This document shows positions 1 to 51,727 of a stretch of DNA of 64,000 nt, piece after piece. The stretch comes from Cognatundibacterium jejuense (lineage in GTDB: Bacteria; Pseudomonadota; Gammaproteobacteria; Burkholderiales; Burkholderiaceae_D). Where the stretch lies: the NCBI RefSeq assembly GCF_014284255.1, contig NZ_JACOFV010000007.1:1-64000 (forward strand). The letters are read 5' to 3'. A model generated the notes under the pieces. It searched no databases, was not told the origin of the DNA, and saw only the letters and a program-made list of their open reading frames with translations. Positions within the stretch are counted from its first letter, which is position 1, and each line of letters starts with the position of its first letter. Position numbers and translations under genes: made by a program.

Positions 1-406
1 AGGCGACAACAGAAGATCAAGCGTTGACAGAATTGGAGCGCTTTAGCCAGCAATGGGGTGAACAATATCCGCAAATTGCGAAGTCATGGTCGACCCACTG
101 GGTCAACCTGAGGACGTTATTTGAATACCCACCCGAGATTCGCAAAGCGATTTACACGACAAACGCCATTGAGTCATTGAACAGCGTGATCCGATCCGCA
201 ACCAAGCGTAGGAAGTTATTTCCAAGCGATGACTCGGCATTAAAAGTCATCTACCTTGCCATTTCGCAGGCAGCTAAAAAATGGACAATGCCTATTCAAA
301 ATTGGCGTATGGCGTTAAATCGTTTTATGATTGAGTTTGGTGACCGCATTCAAAAATACGATCACTAATTTGTTCCGTGGCATTTACACAGAATTTCTTA
401 CAGGCT
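1..406 (+). mobile_element. 3' end of an IS256-family insertion sequence (left part outside window)
   Basis: The window opens inside a transposase reading frame that ends at 368. It is followed by a short segment (about 380-406, containing TTTACACAGAAT and ACAGGCTC) that resembles the terminal inverted repeat of IS256/Mutator-type elements. The left end and target duplication are not visible, so the right boundary is approximate. The element lies on the downstream side of tRNA-Pro, in what looks like island DNA. Confidence 0.7.
3..368 (+). CDS. IS256-family transposase, C-terminal part
   Basis: The frame is open to the first base of the window, so this is the C-terminal piece (about 121 residues) of a roughly 400-residue DDE transposase. 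The recognisable part is the Mutator/IS256 C-terminal block: FEYPPEIRKAIYTTNAIESL, then SVIR, then a basic stretch KRRKLFP and a closing NRFMIEFGDRI. The NAIE region carries the conserved C-terminal catalytic Glu of this family. It would move the IS by cut-and-paste. Nothing shows whether the upstream half is intact. The stop at 366-368 lies about 38 bp before the presumed terminal repeat, which is normal for these elements. Confidence 0.85.
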   Translation, partial: ATTEDQALTELERFSQQWGEQYPQIAKSWSTHWVNLRTLFEYPPEIRKAIYTTNAIESLNSVIRSATKRRKLFPSDDSALKVIYLAISQAAKKWTMPIQNWRMALNRFMIEFGDRIQKYDH

Positions 407-429
407 CAGAATTGAAATTAATATTTTTT

Positions 430-1023
430 TCATTTGTACACGCTATCTATTTCATTCTGTTTAATCTCGCCAGATTGAAACTGTTTGAGTGTAGTAGCAA
501 AATTCTTTGCATCATCAGCACTTAATACAAAGCCTGAATCATTAAGGCATGTTCCCATAGCACAAAATTTCAACGCTAAAAAATGATGTGTGGCATTGCC
601 GCTATGAAACGTAAATTGAACATCTGGTCGCCCAAAGCTCCCCCAAACTTCAGCCTTGCCTATGTCTTTTGTGAATGAGTCCCCTCTGGTCGTTGCGAGA
701 GCTTCCCATTCGTTAAACTTGTTGATGAGTACAAGATAGTCATCAACTTTAGTTTTAAGAAAACGAATTTCTGTGTAGTCTAATCCGTACTGGTCACGAA
801 CTAACTTTGTAACACGTACCACCAAAACCATCTCATCGCCGCTTCTTTTCTCGATTGAAACAAATGTTGGTCGCTCTAAGTAATCTGAGGCAACCGAGTT
901 AAACATTCTTCCATGAAATGAAACTGAAATTCTGGTTGACTCCTCAGCCTTTACAGGGGCGACTATAGAGATAATGCCAGCAAAGAAAATTGCTAGAACG
1001 GAGACTGGTTTTATTAGGCTCAT
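430..1023 (-). CDS. exported protein of unknown function
   Basis: This is a 197-residue protein with a clear signal peptide. A short basic start (MSLIKP) is followed by a hydrophobic core to about residue 24 and a likely signal peptidase I site after VKA, so it should be periplasmic or secreted. The mature part has no motif I recognise. It contains a CAMGTC pair near residue 155 that could form a disulfide, and a hydrophilic C-terminus. The gene runs towards the IS right end and has no partner on its strand. The stop lies only about 24 bp from the presumed IS end. It is probably part of the accessory DNA beside tRNA-Pro. Function unknown. Confidence 0.65.
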   Translation of the reverse strand: MSLIKPVSVLAIFFAGIISIVAPVKAEESTRISVSFHGRMFNSVASDYLERPTFVSIEKRSGDEMVLVVRVTKLVRDQYGLDYTEIRFLKTKVDDYLVLINKFNEWEALATTRGDSFTKDIGKAEVWGSFGRPDVQFTFHSGNATHHFLALKFCAMGTCLNDSGFVLSADDAKNFATTLKQFQSGEIKQNEIDSVYK

Positions 1024-7523: not shown

Positions 7524-8714
7524 TCACAGTCCCAAAATCATTTGTGTAATGATGTTTTTCTGAATCTCGTTCGAGCCACCGTAGATGGAGGTCTTGCGGT
7601 AGTTGAAGTAATACGAGGCGAGGGCAGCCGCGTCGTCGTCACTGACGAGACTATGTTCAGTTTCACCTTCGAGAAATTGTGGATCAAACGGAAGACCGTA
7701 AGGACCGACGGTTTCCAGCATCAATTCAGTCAGTCTTTGTTGAATCTCTGTGCCTTTGATTTTAAGTAAAGACGCTTCAGGACCAGGGCGACCGCTATCT
7801 TGTGAGATCACGCGTAAGACGGTGATTTCCAATGCCATCAATTCGATTTCCAGACTGGCGACTTTATGGGCAAAAACAGGGTCATCGATTAAGGGCTTAC
7901 CGTTCTTTTGATGCTCGCCAGCGATGCGTTTTAAGAACAATAATTCGCGCTTGGCACGTCCAACAGCAGCGATATTGGTACGTTCATGGCCTAAAAGGTA
8001 CTTTGCATAAGTCCAGCCTTTGTTTTCTTCGCCGATCAGATTTTGTACAGGTACTTTGACGTTGTCGAAGAATACTTCATTCACTTCATGGTCTTCATCG
8101 AGCATGATAATAGGGCGCACGGTAATGCCTGGCGTTTTCATGTCGATCAGTAAAAATGAAATGCCTTCCTGCTTCCGTGCCGCTGGATCTGTGCGCACCA
8201 GGCAGAAAATCATGTCCGCGTGTTGTGCTAACGTCGTCCAGGTTTTTTGGCCATTGACGATGTAAAAATCACCATCTCGTTCAGCACGGGTTTTGAGTGA
8301 GGCAAGATCAGAGCCAGAGCCAGGTTCAGAATAGCCCTGACACCACCAGTCGTCGCAATTCAAGATGCGTGGCAGGTAGTAATCTTTTTGTGCCTGATTG
8401 CCAAACGCCATAATCACGGGTGCAACCATGTTCACGCCAAATGGCAAGATCGCAGGTGTGCCAGCGCGGGCGCATTCTTCTTCAAAAATATGTCTTTGCG
8501 TTGGCGTCCAACCCGTACCGCCGTATTCCACCTGCCAGCCTGTACCAACCCAGCCTTGTTTGGCAAGAATTTTATGCCAGCGAACAAAGTCTTCTCTGTT
8601 CATGCGCTTGTGGTTGCGAACCTTGTGTTGCAAATCAGCCGGAAGGTGCGCTTCTAAGTAGCTGCGCACCTCATCACGAAAAGCCAGGTCTTGCGCGGTG
8701 TAGTTCAAATCCAT
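7524..8714 (-). CDS. acyl-CoA dehydrogenase, large-subunit type (PimC-like)
   Basis: This 396-residue protein has the acyl-CoA dehydrogenase signature region WWCQGYSEPGSGSDLASLKT (about residues 123-142), with WTTLAQHAD following. At the C-terminus YGGSNEIQKNII is canonical. The position of the FAD motif QLHGGMG instead reads LETVGPYGLPF, complementary to the small subunit encoded next. The start has a strong site (CAGGAGACAAC ATG), the same leader found at 13400. It is the first gene of the operon. The pair probably forms an alpha2beta2 dehydrogenase acting on a dicarboxylyl-, branched- or cyclic-acyl-CoA. This is inference from motif loss and order. Confidence 0.85.
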   Translation of the reverse strand: MDLNYTAQDLAFRDEVRSYLEAHLPADLQHKVRNHKRMNREDFVRWHKILAKQGWVGTGWQVEYGGTGWTPTQRHIFEEECARAGTPAILPFGVNMVAPVIMAFGNQAQKDYYLPRILNCDDWWCQGYSEPGSGSDLASLKTRAERDGDFYIVNGQKTWTTLAQHADMIFCLVRTDPAARKQEGISFLLIDMKTPGITVRPIIMLDEDHEVNEVFFDNVKVPVQNLIGEENKGWTYAKYLLGHERTNIAAVGRAKRELLFLKRIAGEHQKNGKPLIDDPVFAHKVASLEIELMALEITVLRVISQDSGRPGPEASLLKIKGTEIQQRLTELMLETVGPYGLPFDPQFLEGETEHSLVSDDDAAALASYYFNYRKTSIYGGSNEIQKNIITQMILGL

Positions 8715-48762: not shown

Positions 48763-49986
48763 TTACTTGCCGCCTGCTTTTTGCACATGACAATGTAAAG
48801 CAAGAAACCGCATTGCGCCGCTATACGTCGTGTCCCAATCATCAAGCAAATAATTATTGGCTTCTTCGATAAAGTTAACCCAATCTTCCAATAAACCCTC
48901 TTGCTTTTCATGTGGCGCAGAGTCTTTAATCCACGCCGTCGCCAACTCATGCGGAAAACCATCGTTTCTGAATTGCTTAACAATAGACTTCGCAATCTTT
49001 TCCGATATGCTGGTTTTTGGCGTAATCCCTGCAGAAATACAAACGAATAGCGTCATCAGCGAATCAACGTCGGTCTTGCCTTTGGTCAGCCGACTCCATT
49101 CTTTCGATACCAAAGCATCGTATTCAGATGTATCTTCAATCTCATGATCACCAAGATAGTATTTATCCTTCAAGGTAAATACCAGGCGATCGAGTGGGGC
49201 TTTTTTATCTTGCAACACCGGAATATCGTGCGTCTTAATTTCTTCAACAATACGCTGTACAACTGATAAAAACTGCCCCGGAATCTCAGACAAATCAACA
49301 TTGGTAATCGCCTTGTTGCGCTTCGCAACCGGCATAGCTCGAATCGCGTCAATCAAAGTCGCAAACTCGAGTTGATTGGCGAGATTATCATCTGGCCCAC
49401 CAAACATCATCACCAATAATGCAGATCTGACGACACCAACCGCTTCAACATCTTCATCTTTTAAATTTTCGGCAGACAGTCCAAGATATTCTCCAAACCA
49501 ATAGCCTGCCGCGATTTCCAAGGCATTCAACTGACGATGCTCGAGAGTATTGCGGTATTCATGTGGTTTTTCTTTGAGTGACCATGCTTCCAGAAAGTCT
49601 TCCACCCTTCCCTTTGCCTCGCGACCGAGTAAAGCGTATTCTGGTAACGCGAACAGCGTTTTCAGCAGCCCAGAGCCGCCGCGGGATAAGCTCAAAAACG
49701 TATTATCGCGGATAAGCTTTGCGGCAATTTCTAAATCACCTCTGGAACTTTCAATCAGATAAAGACTGGCAAGATTAACAATGCGCTTACGTGCCGCTTC
49801 AATTTCTGGTCGCAAATATTTACTACCGAATGCATCCGCGATTTGCACTAAGCCTTTTGGCGCTTCTGCTTCAATGGCTGCGATTTTACTGCTAGAAATG
49901 ATCGCCCGCTGCACACCAAAACGCAAGGCGGATTCAAAAAATGGACGATTATCGATCAGAGCAATATCGTAGGGTGTATCAGACAT
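48763..49986 (-). CDS. uncharacterised 407-residue protein of the J-domain operon
   Basis: This 407-residue cytoplasmic protein has no signal peptide or membrane segment and I recognise no family. It is alpha-helical in character, with repeated acidic and Leu-rich helices, and contains IVEEIKTHDIPVLQDKKAPLDRLVF and DDWDTTYSGAMRFLALHCH near the end. It starts at ATG 49986 with MSDTPYDIALIDNRPFFESA; the longer frame is unlikely. It lies 96 bp after the 254-residue gene on the same strand, so it is probably the last gene of the operon. Function unknown. Confidence 0.7.
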   Translation of the reverse strand: MSDTPYDIALIDNRPFFESALRFGVQRAIISSSKIAAIEAEAPKGLVQIADAFGSKYLRPEIEAARKRIVNLASLYLIESSRGDLEIAAKLIRDNTFLSLSRGGSGLLKTLFALPEYALLGREAKGRVEDFLEAWSLKEKPHEYRNTLEHRQLNALEIAAGYWFGEYLGLSAENLKDEDVEAVGVVRSALLVMMFGGPDDNLANQLEFATLIDAIRAMPVAKRNKAITNVDLSEIPGQFLSVVQRIVEEIKTHDIPVLQDKKAPLDRLVFTLKDKYYLGDHEIEDTSEYDALVSKEWSRLTKGKTDVDSLMTLFVCISAGITPKTSISEKIAKSIVKQFRNDGFPHELATAWIKDSAPHEKQEGLLEDWVNFIEEANNYLLDDWDTTYSGAMRFLALHCHVQKAGGK

Positions 49987-50082
49987 GGGATCTTTACTCG
50001 TGTAAATTTTCAAGGGAGACAAGCAAAAAATGCAGAACGCTGCATGCGTCCTGCATTTCAACCAGCAATCAACTAACAAGCA

Positions 50083-50847
50083 TTACAGCGCTGACTCTTC
50101 GTCATCATCCTTATCATCGCCATCATCATTATTTTTCGGACGATCATCCTCCTCTTCGGATTCAGCTTCGCCACCTTCTAGTTCATCCGATTGAAGATTA
50201 GCCAGGTAAGCCTTATAACGCGCCCGCAACTTCATTAACACTTCACGGAAAATCTCTGGCAACTCATAGCGTAAGATGTAAGTCACCTGCATCCAGTCGC
50301 GATCTTCCAGATTTGCCATATCCAAAGGCGATGCCAAACTTTCGGTATCGCGATCCAGATTCATCAAATCATCTTCTTGCGCCTGCGTTTTAGCACCATC
50401 ACCATACTCATACAGATCGAACGTTGCATAACGATAGAAATGCTCGACCATTTGTGTACGATCCAGCAAATAATCGACCAAAGCATCGTAGCCGCCGTCG
50501 ACTTCGGCGATTTCATACAAAAATTCCGCCGGATCAGCACCTTCACGGAAGATCACAGAATTGATCATGCCGCGCAATTGTTCATGGGTCTGGTCGCCAT
50601 AACGACGCTCCAACACCACCGCTTGAGCAAATTGCTCTGGCGTTACCAACAAGTTCACCAATGATTCTTTTGAGGCATCGTATTCGCGAATAATCGCTAA
50701 CAAATCCTTCGATGGAAAATCATCCAGCGCGGCTACCAGCGCCTTATCTCCCTGAGTTTCTGCGATATTTGCCAATGCAAATTCAGCACCGGCAATGTCG
50801 CCCGCCAGAATCAGATTTTGCGCTTCAATTAATGCAGGTAATGTCAT
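50083..50847 (-). CDS. uncharacterised 254-residue protein with acidic C-terminal tail
   Basis: This 254-residue cytoplasmic protein has a helical N-terminal half (LIEAQNLILAGDIAGAEFALANIAETQGDKALV resembles helical-repeat segments). A central part contains ERRYGDQTHEQLRGMINSVIFREGADPAEFLYEIAEVDGG. The C-terminal ~35 residues are almost all Asp, Glu, Lys and Asn. Such tails can bind chaperones, ribosomal proteins or basic partners. It starts 8 bp after the 198-residue gene. I do not recognise the family. Membership of the J-domain operon is the best clue to its job. Confidence 0.7.
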   Translation of the reverse strand: MTLPALIEAQNLILAGDIAGAEFALANIAETQGDKALVAALDDFPSKDLLAIIREYDASKESLVNLLVTPEQFAQAVVLERRYGDQTHEQLRGMINSVIFREGADPAEFLYEIAEVDGGYDALVDYLLDRTQMVEHFYRYATFDLYEYGDGAKTQAQEDDLMNLDRDTESLASPLDMANLEDRDWMQVTYILRYELPEIFREVLMKLRARYKAYLANLQSDELEGGEAESEEEDDRPKNNDDGDDKDDDEESAL

Positions 50848-50855
50848 AACTATCC

Positions 50856-51452
50856 TTAATCTTTGCGATCAAAACCTTGCTCAGCAAGCCAATCAGCACC
50901 AGCTTCATCAAGATCATAATCATCGCCATCATCACCGTCGTCACGACCGTGGCGGCCGTAATTGCCATCGAGGTCACCGTTTTCTTTCAGTTCTTCTGCT
51001 TCCTCGTTGGCTTCGCTATCCTCATCATCCTCAAGGGTGTTGGTCGCACTATGCTTGCGAGCTTGCTGCCCACGATTCAAATATTCAAGTGCAACAGCAA
51101 TCACCATAAAACGCTCTCCGCCTTCTGCATTAAGAACAATTTTACTTAATGGCTCAGCCCAAGGTTCCAGCTTAACCGCTGTAGACAAACTCTTCCAGGT
51201 TGGCAGCTTAGACTCTTCTTTGGTACTTAAGGTTTCCATGACCAGTGGATTCATAAAAATGAAACCAGAATGGAAAGCAGACGCCAGCATCTCTGGATTA
51301 CTTCCCATCATTGGCAATAACAAAGGTAATTGCTCTGCTTTTTCGCGCAATCTGGCCTTGAGTATGTTCTTACCCTCGGAATCTGACTTTAAATCTTCAA
51401 TTTCTGCATTGTAAACCGAGGTCAAGTCTTCAAAAAAACGTGACAATTTCAC
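50856..51452 (-). CDS. uncharacterised 198-residue acidic protein, coupled to J-domain gene
   Basis: This 198-residue cytoplasmic protein has a helical first two-thirds (MKLSRFFEDLTSVYNAEIEDL, LPLLLPMMGSNPEMLASAFHSGFIFMNP). The C-terminal ~60 residues are a strongly acidic, Asp/Glu/Gly-rich tail. Translation starts at GTG 51452 with CAGGAG upstream and overlaps the J-domain stop by 4 bp, so both proteins are made together. No known family was recognised. The coupling suggests it is a client or adaptor of the J-domain protein. Confidence 0.72.
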   Translation of the reverse strand: MKLSRFFEDLTSVYNAEIEDLKSDSEGKNILKARLREKAEQLPLLLPMMGSNPEMLASAFHSGFIFMNPLVMETLSTKEESKLPTWKSLSTAVKLEPWAEPLSKIVLNAEGGERFMVIAVALEYLNRGQQARKHSATNTLEDDEDSEANEEAEELKENGDLDGNYGRHGRDDGDDGDDYDLDEAGADWLAEQGFDRKD

Positions 51453-51727
51453 TTCAATACTCCTGATAAATAGTGCTTCCAGATTTCTGTCGCCGTTTCT
51501 AGTGGCGAATCCAGCAAATTCCGGCGACGATTCTCGTCGTAAGCAGTGCGCGCCGCATCGTCCGACAGGATGTCGTAGGCTTCCTTCACTGCATGGAATT
51601 TTTCCGGTGCCAATTCCGACGTGTTACGGTCGGGATGAAATTCGGCAGCTTTTTGACGGAAGGCTTTCTTAATATCGGCCAGTGATGCATTCGGCGCGAT
51701 ACCCAGAATGACGTAGTAATCTTTCAT
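51449..51727 (-). CDS. short J-domain (Hsp40) protein
   Basis: This 92-residue protein is a J-domain with little else. It starts MKDYYVILGIAPNASLADIKKAFRQKAAEF, then the HPD triplet (residues 31-33, FHPDRN) that stimulates Hsp70 ATPase, then KFHAVKEAYDILSDDAARTAYD. It has no Gly/Phe linker, zinc or client domain, so client choice must come from partners. Those are probably the coupled acidic proteins downstream. It is the first gene of the four-gene operon, 265 bp after slyD on the same strand. The ATG at 51727 is chosen over a frame extending to 51802. Confidence 0.88.
   Translation of the reverse strand: MKDYYVILGIAPNASLADIKKAFRQKAAEFHPDRNTSELAPEKFHAVKEAYDILSDDAARTAYDENRRRNLLDSPLETATEIWKHYLSGVLK

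Follow-up and report, generated by a model that had tools for sequence, protein, structure and literature searches.

Sequence comparison places a four-gene operon of Cognatundibacterium jejuense in a diverged betaproteobacterial branch of the atcJABC cold-adaptation operon

Four consecutive genes on the minus strand (51727-48763) of a 64,000-nucleotide stretch of the Cognatundibacterium jejuense genome (contig NZ_JACOFV010000007.1, positions 1 to 64,000; hereafter the window) encode, by translation, proteins of 92, 198, 254 and 407 residues. Judged by sequence comparison, this operon is a diverged betaproteobacterial branch of the cold-adaptation operon atcJABC. The original prediction stated that no system of such composition had been described, but the system is of a known kind: atcJABC of Shewanella oneidensis was published in 2019 (PMC6715715). 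We consider it probable that in the betaproteobacterial operon AtcJ, through an adaptor chain of AtcC and AtcB, brings DnaK to the binding partner of AtcB, and that growth in the cold depends on this chain.

Identification of the operon

The first gene encodes a short class C J-domain protein. Its J-domain is intact (Pfam DnaJ, E = 4.5e-22, residues 3-64) and is followed only by a short C-terminal tail. The original prediction had described a protein that is almost only a J-domain, with its HPD motif preserved, at the head of a four-gene operon, and this description was accurate in its coordinates, product lengths, overlap and gap.

The NCBIfam collection holds equivalog models for all four Atc proteins (AtcJ, NF050028; AtcA, NF047888; AtcB, NF047889; AtcC, NF047890). 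The products of window genes 1, 2 and 4 match the AtcJ, AtcA and AtcC models, that is, in the right order. When the window protein and 19 relatives were scanned for each family, the AtcA model matched 15 of the 20 members (best E = 1.3e-7), the AtcB model 8 of 20 (best E = 0.0016) and the AtcC model all 20 (best E = 6.2e-9).

The order J-A-B-C is kept in all 21 loci collected from the family and order (in one, L008, a contig end truncates the J gene). Scanning named genome contigs turned up 286 relatives of AtcB, and among the best 80 of these, A, B and C stand in order in 80 of 80 loci and J precedes them in 79; the remaining locus (L070) ends at the contig edge before atcJ. The sets of 21 and 80 loci share some genomes. 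The same order is found in 18/18 gammaproteobacterial loci fetched, again with one J gene (L184) cut by a contig end. The four-gene arrangement is therefore not due to chance, since its order is the same in 21/21 and 79/80 loci, and the expectation that the genes would be kept together in other genomes was borne out.

Profile comparison relates the betaproteobacterial proteins to their gammaproteobacterial counterparts. The betaproteobacterial alignments contained the window and 19 of the 21 loci (A1-A3) or, for AtcJ, the window and 18 of the 21 (A4); the gammaproteobacterial alignments (A5-A7) contained 13 of the 18 loci. With hhalign, matched pairs gave E = 3e-11 for AtcA (residues 24-136), E = 3.5e-8 for AtcB (residues 1-123, the N-terminal half only) and E = 7.6e-10 for AtcC (residues 11-259), and three mismatched pairs, used as controls, gave E = 0.31, 0.34 and 0.68. 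Based on the order of the NCBIfam matches, the J-A-B-C order of the gammaproteobacterial loci and the E-values of the matched pairs, we conclude that the four genes are a branch of atcJABC. Genes 2-4, which had been taken to encode three unrecognised proteins, thus match known families, namely those of the Atc system and not unrelated ones.

The likeness to the S. oneidensis operon (SO_1850, SO_1849, SO_1848 and SO_1846) extends beyond gene content and gene order (PMC6715715). Both have a short J protein with an HPD motif and a short tail, an AtcB of about 250 residues and an AtcA of similar size; in the gammaproteobacterial loci, AtcA too has an acidic tail. There are also differences. AtcC has 407 residues in the window and about 297 in Shewanella. 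The window atcJ and atcA overlap by 4 bp, whereas in S. oneidensis atcJ lies 120 bp before atcA, and atcA overlaps atcB (PMC6715715). Lastly, the window has slyD as a neighbor, and its proteins score below the NCBIfam equivalog cut-offs.

The literature searched, which did not cover Weber et al. 2023, yielded no description of the terminal peptides or of the long AtcC discussed below. In their abstract, Weber et al. 2023 reportedly place AtcJ homologues in beta- and gammaproteobacteria, in which case the branch would already have been noted. By its title, as it appears in reference 43 of PMC10939069, that study (Environ Microbiol 25:2447; doi 10.1111/1462-2920.16478) concerns conservation in environmental proteobacteria.

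Terminal peptides, acidic tails and the longer AtcC

Short C-terminal motifs are conserved in AtcJ, AtcA and AtcB. The tail of AtcJ carries P-x7-W in 18 of 19 aligned sequences (window included), in 79/79 of the named-collection loci and in all 18 gammaproteobacterial AtcJ. We presume that this motif is the AtcC-binding element, a role that Weber et al. 2023 reportedly give it in their abstract.

The original prediction drew attention to two acidic tails, and both are present: AtcA is acidic from about residue 140 onward, and AtcB over its last ~35 residues. However, it is the peptides at their ends that are conserved. Among 78 AtcA sequences used for these counts, the linker varies from 37 to 71 residues and from 29 to 47% aspartate plus glutamate (D/E), and it is followed by [WF][LM]xxQGF in 78/78. 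In AtcB, the acidity of the tail ranges from 16 to 52% D/E over the 80 loci and is thus no constant feature, but every protein ends in SA[LI] (80/80: EESAL in 54, EESAI in 22, DESAL in 2, GESAL and DDSAL in 1 each). In 44 AtcB sequences the mean modal identity is 0.33 in the tail before the terminal peptide compared to 0.75 in residues 1-140, and it is 0.95, 0.98, 1.0, 1.0 and 0.68 at the last five positions. (Alignments A9 and A10 consist of the window together with 40 and 43 loci, respectively, out of 43 picked among the 80.)

The end of AtcB lies upstream of atcC, and we considered whether it might be kept only as an overlapping ribosome-binding site of that gene. We reject this reading because the gap between atcB and atcC is at least 40 bp in 40/79 loci and because synonymous codons vary. 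At the end of atcB, serine is encoded by each of the four TCN codons and alanine by each of its four codons; this free variation indicates that selection acts on the protein. Gammaproteobacterial AtcB proteins end differently, in DDMFSFL[DE] or a similar sequence in 14/18 loci and in DDMFAPL in 4/18, but again in acidic and then hydrophobic residues.

We infer that the acidic tails are variable linkers, or flexible tethers, that end in conserved short docking peptides. More tentatively, and with the balance somewhat against it, the tethers of AtcA and AtcB might serve to display terminal peptides instead of acid patches, and these, together with the AtcJ tail, could dock the chain onto a shared target. 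That target could be RNA polymerase or the longer C-terminal part of AtcC, a part that betaproteobacterial AtcC would have gained for docking.

AtcC is 401-435 residues long in the 76 complete copies among the 80 loci and 296-301 (14 copies) or 306 residues (4 copies) in gammaproteobacteria, so that the betaproteobacterial protein is ~100 residues longer. A structure model of AtcC (AlphaFold2, AF2) is nearly all-helical with a mean predicted local distance difference test score (pLDDT) of 87.9. The AtcB model has a mean pLDDT of 75.5, with residues 227-254 below 50. Structure prediction and profile searches had been proposed as a check on the identity of these proteins. Profile comparison did identify AtcA, AtcB and AtcC, but Foldseek searches with the AtcB and AtcC models gave no match at E <= 0.001. 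A second structural comparison (VIA) of the AtcC model gave nothing usable (best Z 4.9 at a root-mean-square deviation of 19.5). Sequence searches of the PDB with betaproteobacterial AtcC and AtcB profiles found no match up to E = 1, and those with the gammaproteobacterial profiles gave weak matches only, one and five in number (E = 0.34-0.84).

For AtcB, the two top structural matches are both MgtE (Z 8.4 over 113 residues at 2.6 A, and Z 7.4 over 126 residues at 3.5 A), values that helical repeats can reach by chance; FliG follows at Z 5.6. The predicted core of AtcB may resemble the cytosolic N domain of MgtE in fold only, as there is no usable sequence relation between them. MgtE_N (PF03448) matches 2/44 AtcB members weakly (best E = 0.094), and hhalign gave E = 0.061 and 0.06 for AtcB against MgtE next to 0.24 and 0.37 for AtcC and AtcA controls, so that a sequence relation is not upheld by profile comparison. 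Other weak family matches are UPF0270 (best E = 0.0038) and DUF6890 (best E = 0.0019), each in 11/44 AtcB members, and GemA in 2/41 AtcC members (best E = 2.1e-5).

Locus layout, neighbors and distribution

The coordinates of the operon and its features are collected in the table. The overlap of atcJ and atcA (51449-51452) reads GTGA on the minus strand because the start codon of atcA is a GTG at 51452; a 4-bp overlap at this junction is found in 61/79 loci. The gap between atcA and atcB is 8 bp (50848-50855), and that between atcB and atcC is 96 bp. A TTG further upstream is an alternative start for atcC and would give a protein of 438 residues. By eye, a hairpin directly before a T-run is clear in the atcB-atcC gap in 8/76 loci, all from Undibacterium and with two unlike stem sequences, and is weaker or unclear in the remaining loci. 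Going by its sequence, this hairpin may tune the level of AtcC.

Table. Positions of the atc genes, their motifs and slyD in the window (aa, amino acids).
Feature	Position	Strand	Description
atcJ	51449..51727	-	92 aa, J-domain and short C-terminal tail; Pfam DnaJ 78.3 bits, NCBIfam AtcJ 57.2 bits, alignment
HPD motif of AtcJ, residues 31-33	51629..51637	-	translation; invariant in 19/19 aligned AtcJ including the window
P-x7-W in AtcJ tail, residues 75-83 (P75, W83)	51479..51505	-	presumed AtcC-binding element
atcA	50856..51452	-	198 aa; N-terminal part (~1-126) and terminal peptide conserved, with an acidic linker between them
AtcA terminal peptide WLAEQGFD, residues 188-195	50868..50891	-	after variable acidic linker
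atcB	50083..50847	-	254 aa; core helical in the AF2 model, tail acidic and ending in EESAL
AtcB terminal EESAL, residues 250-254	50086..50100	-	SA[LI] end in 80/80 loci
Hairpin and T-run, atcB-atcC gap	50027..50059	-	stem of 14 pairs, from a consensus scan only; may be an internal terminator or attenuator
atcC	48763..49986	-	407 aa from ATG; nearly all-helical model
AtcC residues 11-259	49210..49956	-	aligning with the shorter gammaproteobacterial AtcC (8-254); profile comparison
AtcC residues 260-407	48766..49209	-	unaligned to gammaproteobacterial AtcC; profile comparison, lengths; no Pfam match in the window, no PDB sequence match
slyD	52472-51993	-	upstream of atcJ, same strand

The original prediction pointed to slyD just upstream. 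This holds for the window but is not general: among the genes searched, slyD lies directly upstream of atcJ in 32/80 loci. It is found there in most Undibacterium loci, in Sapientia, in Solimicrobium and in some Oxalobacteraceae/Burkholderiales genomes, and in none of the listed Collimonas, Rhodoferax, Glaciimonas and other loci. The adjacency of slyD and atc reads as one inherited neighborhood, and it argues weakly for a functional link. In a locus of another genus (L009), an open reading frame that by eye looks like an FKBP-type protein lies downstream of atcC (77-520, minus strand), one open reading frame beyond it and on the same strand; it would be a second prolyl-isomerase neighbor besides slyD in Undibacterium.

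The closest named loci among the best 80 are from Undibacterium species, and the other genera represented include Collimonas, Rhodoferax, Glaciimonas, Herminiimonas, Variovorax and Accumulibacter. Within the family, AtcC was matched in 32/116 genomes and in 11/44 genera, with one copy broken by stops; in an order-wide sample it was matched in 4/100 genomes. The distribution is patchy at both levels. The broken copy (G564:C22) has internal stops and comes from a small genome of 1.7 Mb, a case of gene decay. A search across the class with the gammaproteobacterial AtcC model recovered the window genome only, among 369. In an order-wide gammaproteobacterial sample centered on a SeqA-bearing genome, AtcC was matched in 35/247 genomes, 31 of them above the curated cut-off. 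Four genomes (G758, G654, G686 and G727; loci L181-L184) represent another gammaproteobacterial branch, in which AtcC scores 38-43 bits, the genes are spaced more widely and AtcB ends in DDMFAPL.

Proposed function and alternatives

Homology to the Shewanella system leads us to propose that the same adaptor chain works in Undibacterium. The HPD loop of AtcJ would recruit and stimulate DnaK, the short tail of AtcJ would dock on AtcC through P-x7-W, and AtcC would hold AtcB. The operon would then make an adaptor chain that brings DnaK to the binding partner of AtcB, probably RNA polymerase or a client on RNA polymerase, and this chain would be needed for growth in the cold. The Shewanella study reports that AtcJ stimulates DnaK and binds AtcC through its last 21 residues, that AtcC binds AtcB, and that loss of J, B or C strongly lowers growth in the cold (PMC6715715). 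AtcB contacts RNA polymerase according to a meeting report (PMC7871303), and by analogy RNA polymerase would be the end point of the chain. The suggestion in the original prediction that a J protein without a client domain recruits Hsp70 together with its operon partners agrees with what was shown for this homologous system (PMC6715715).

The genome of C. jejuense itself (G000) has three full-length Hsp70 genes. Two are DnaK-like genes (C6:16607-18801 and C10:1588-3893), each adjoining a J-domain gene, and the third lies on C1 beside a J-domain match. The C1 pair is separate from the atc operon and is probably hscA/hscB. HscB has its own client-binding domain, a difference from AtcJ. HscB and IscU, of Fe-S assembly, otherwise offer a likeness: a class C J protein encoded with a dedicated partner and working with Hsp70, as the Shewanella study describes (PMC6715715).

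Several observations weigh against the proposed identity and function. The window proteins score far below the NCBIfam equivalog cut-offs (AtcJ 57.2 against 150 bits, AtcA 18 against 200, AtcC 23.9 against 370), and the product of gene 3, scanned alone, has no Atc match in NCBIfam. We therefore file the operon in the wider Atc family and not as an NCBIfam equivalog, and with so large a divergence its function need not be the same. The AtcB match in the aligned members is weak, with an unrelated family close behind it (the YheU model, like UPF0270, in 3/20 members, best E = 0.0066). About 150 residues of AtcC (260-407) find no aligned counterpart, and the last ~43 residues of gammaproteobacterial AtcC do not align either. 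In the most diverged relative aligned (L058 of G054; 7756-8040), AtcJ has A for the W of P-x7-W. Lastly, the RNA polymerase step goes back to one sentence in the meeting report (PMC7871303), and the cold role in Undibacterium would be carried over from Shewanella.

Some of these observations could also be explained if a homologous operon had kept the DnaK-adaptor architecture but served a stress or client other than growth in the cold. Divergence below the equivalog cut-offs, the ~100 additional residues of AtcC, the different end of AtcB (SA[LI] as opposed to DDMFSFL[DE]) and the patchy presence (32/116 family genomes, counting the broken copy, and 4/100 order genomes) are all compatible with such a change. 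However, with all four genes preserved in their order and the tail motif of AtcJ in common, the core interaction is probably unchanged, and we regard a change of biology as unlikely. An undescribed Hsp70-recruiting complex, as first predicted, would fit the Pfam scan of window genes 2-4, which gave no model above cut-off, but it is already refuted by the identification of AtcA, AtcB and AtcC in NCBIfam and profile comparisons and by the 2019 publication (PMC6715715); we give it almost no weight. A defense or mobile-element module is just as improbable: it could account for the patchy distribution and for one chance-level match of AtcA to a defense kinase model (E = 0.039), but none of the four proteins has a PADLOC match up to E = 5, a search of IMG/VR contigs that used only the window AtcB as query, and so could reach no more than close relatives, returned 39 pattern matches but no relative, and the chromosomal neighbors are the same in many Undibacterium loci.

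By its assignment to a branch of atcJABC, the operon joins a system whose biochemistry has been published, and a false novelty is removed. Because of this placement, the question raised by the original prediction can be tested directly. Across the 80 betaproteobacterial loci, constraint falls on the tail motif of AtcJ and on the terminal peptides of AtcA and AtcB, and not on the acidic stretches. The constrained residues are concrete sites at which to test how a J protein that lacks a client domain aims DnaK.

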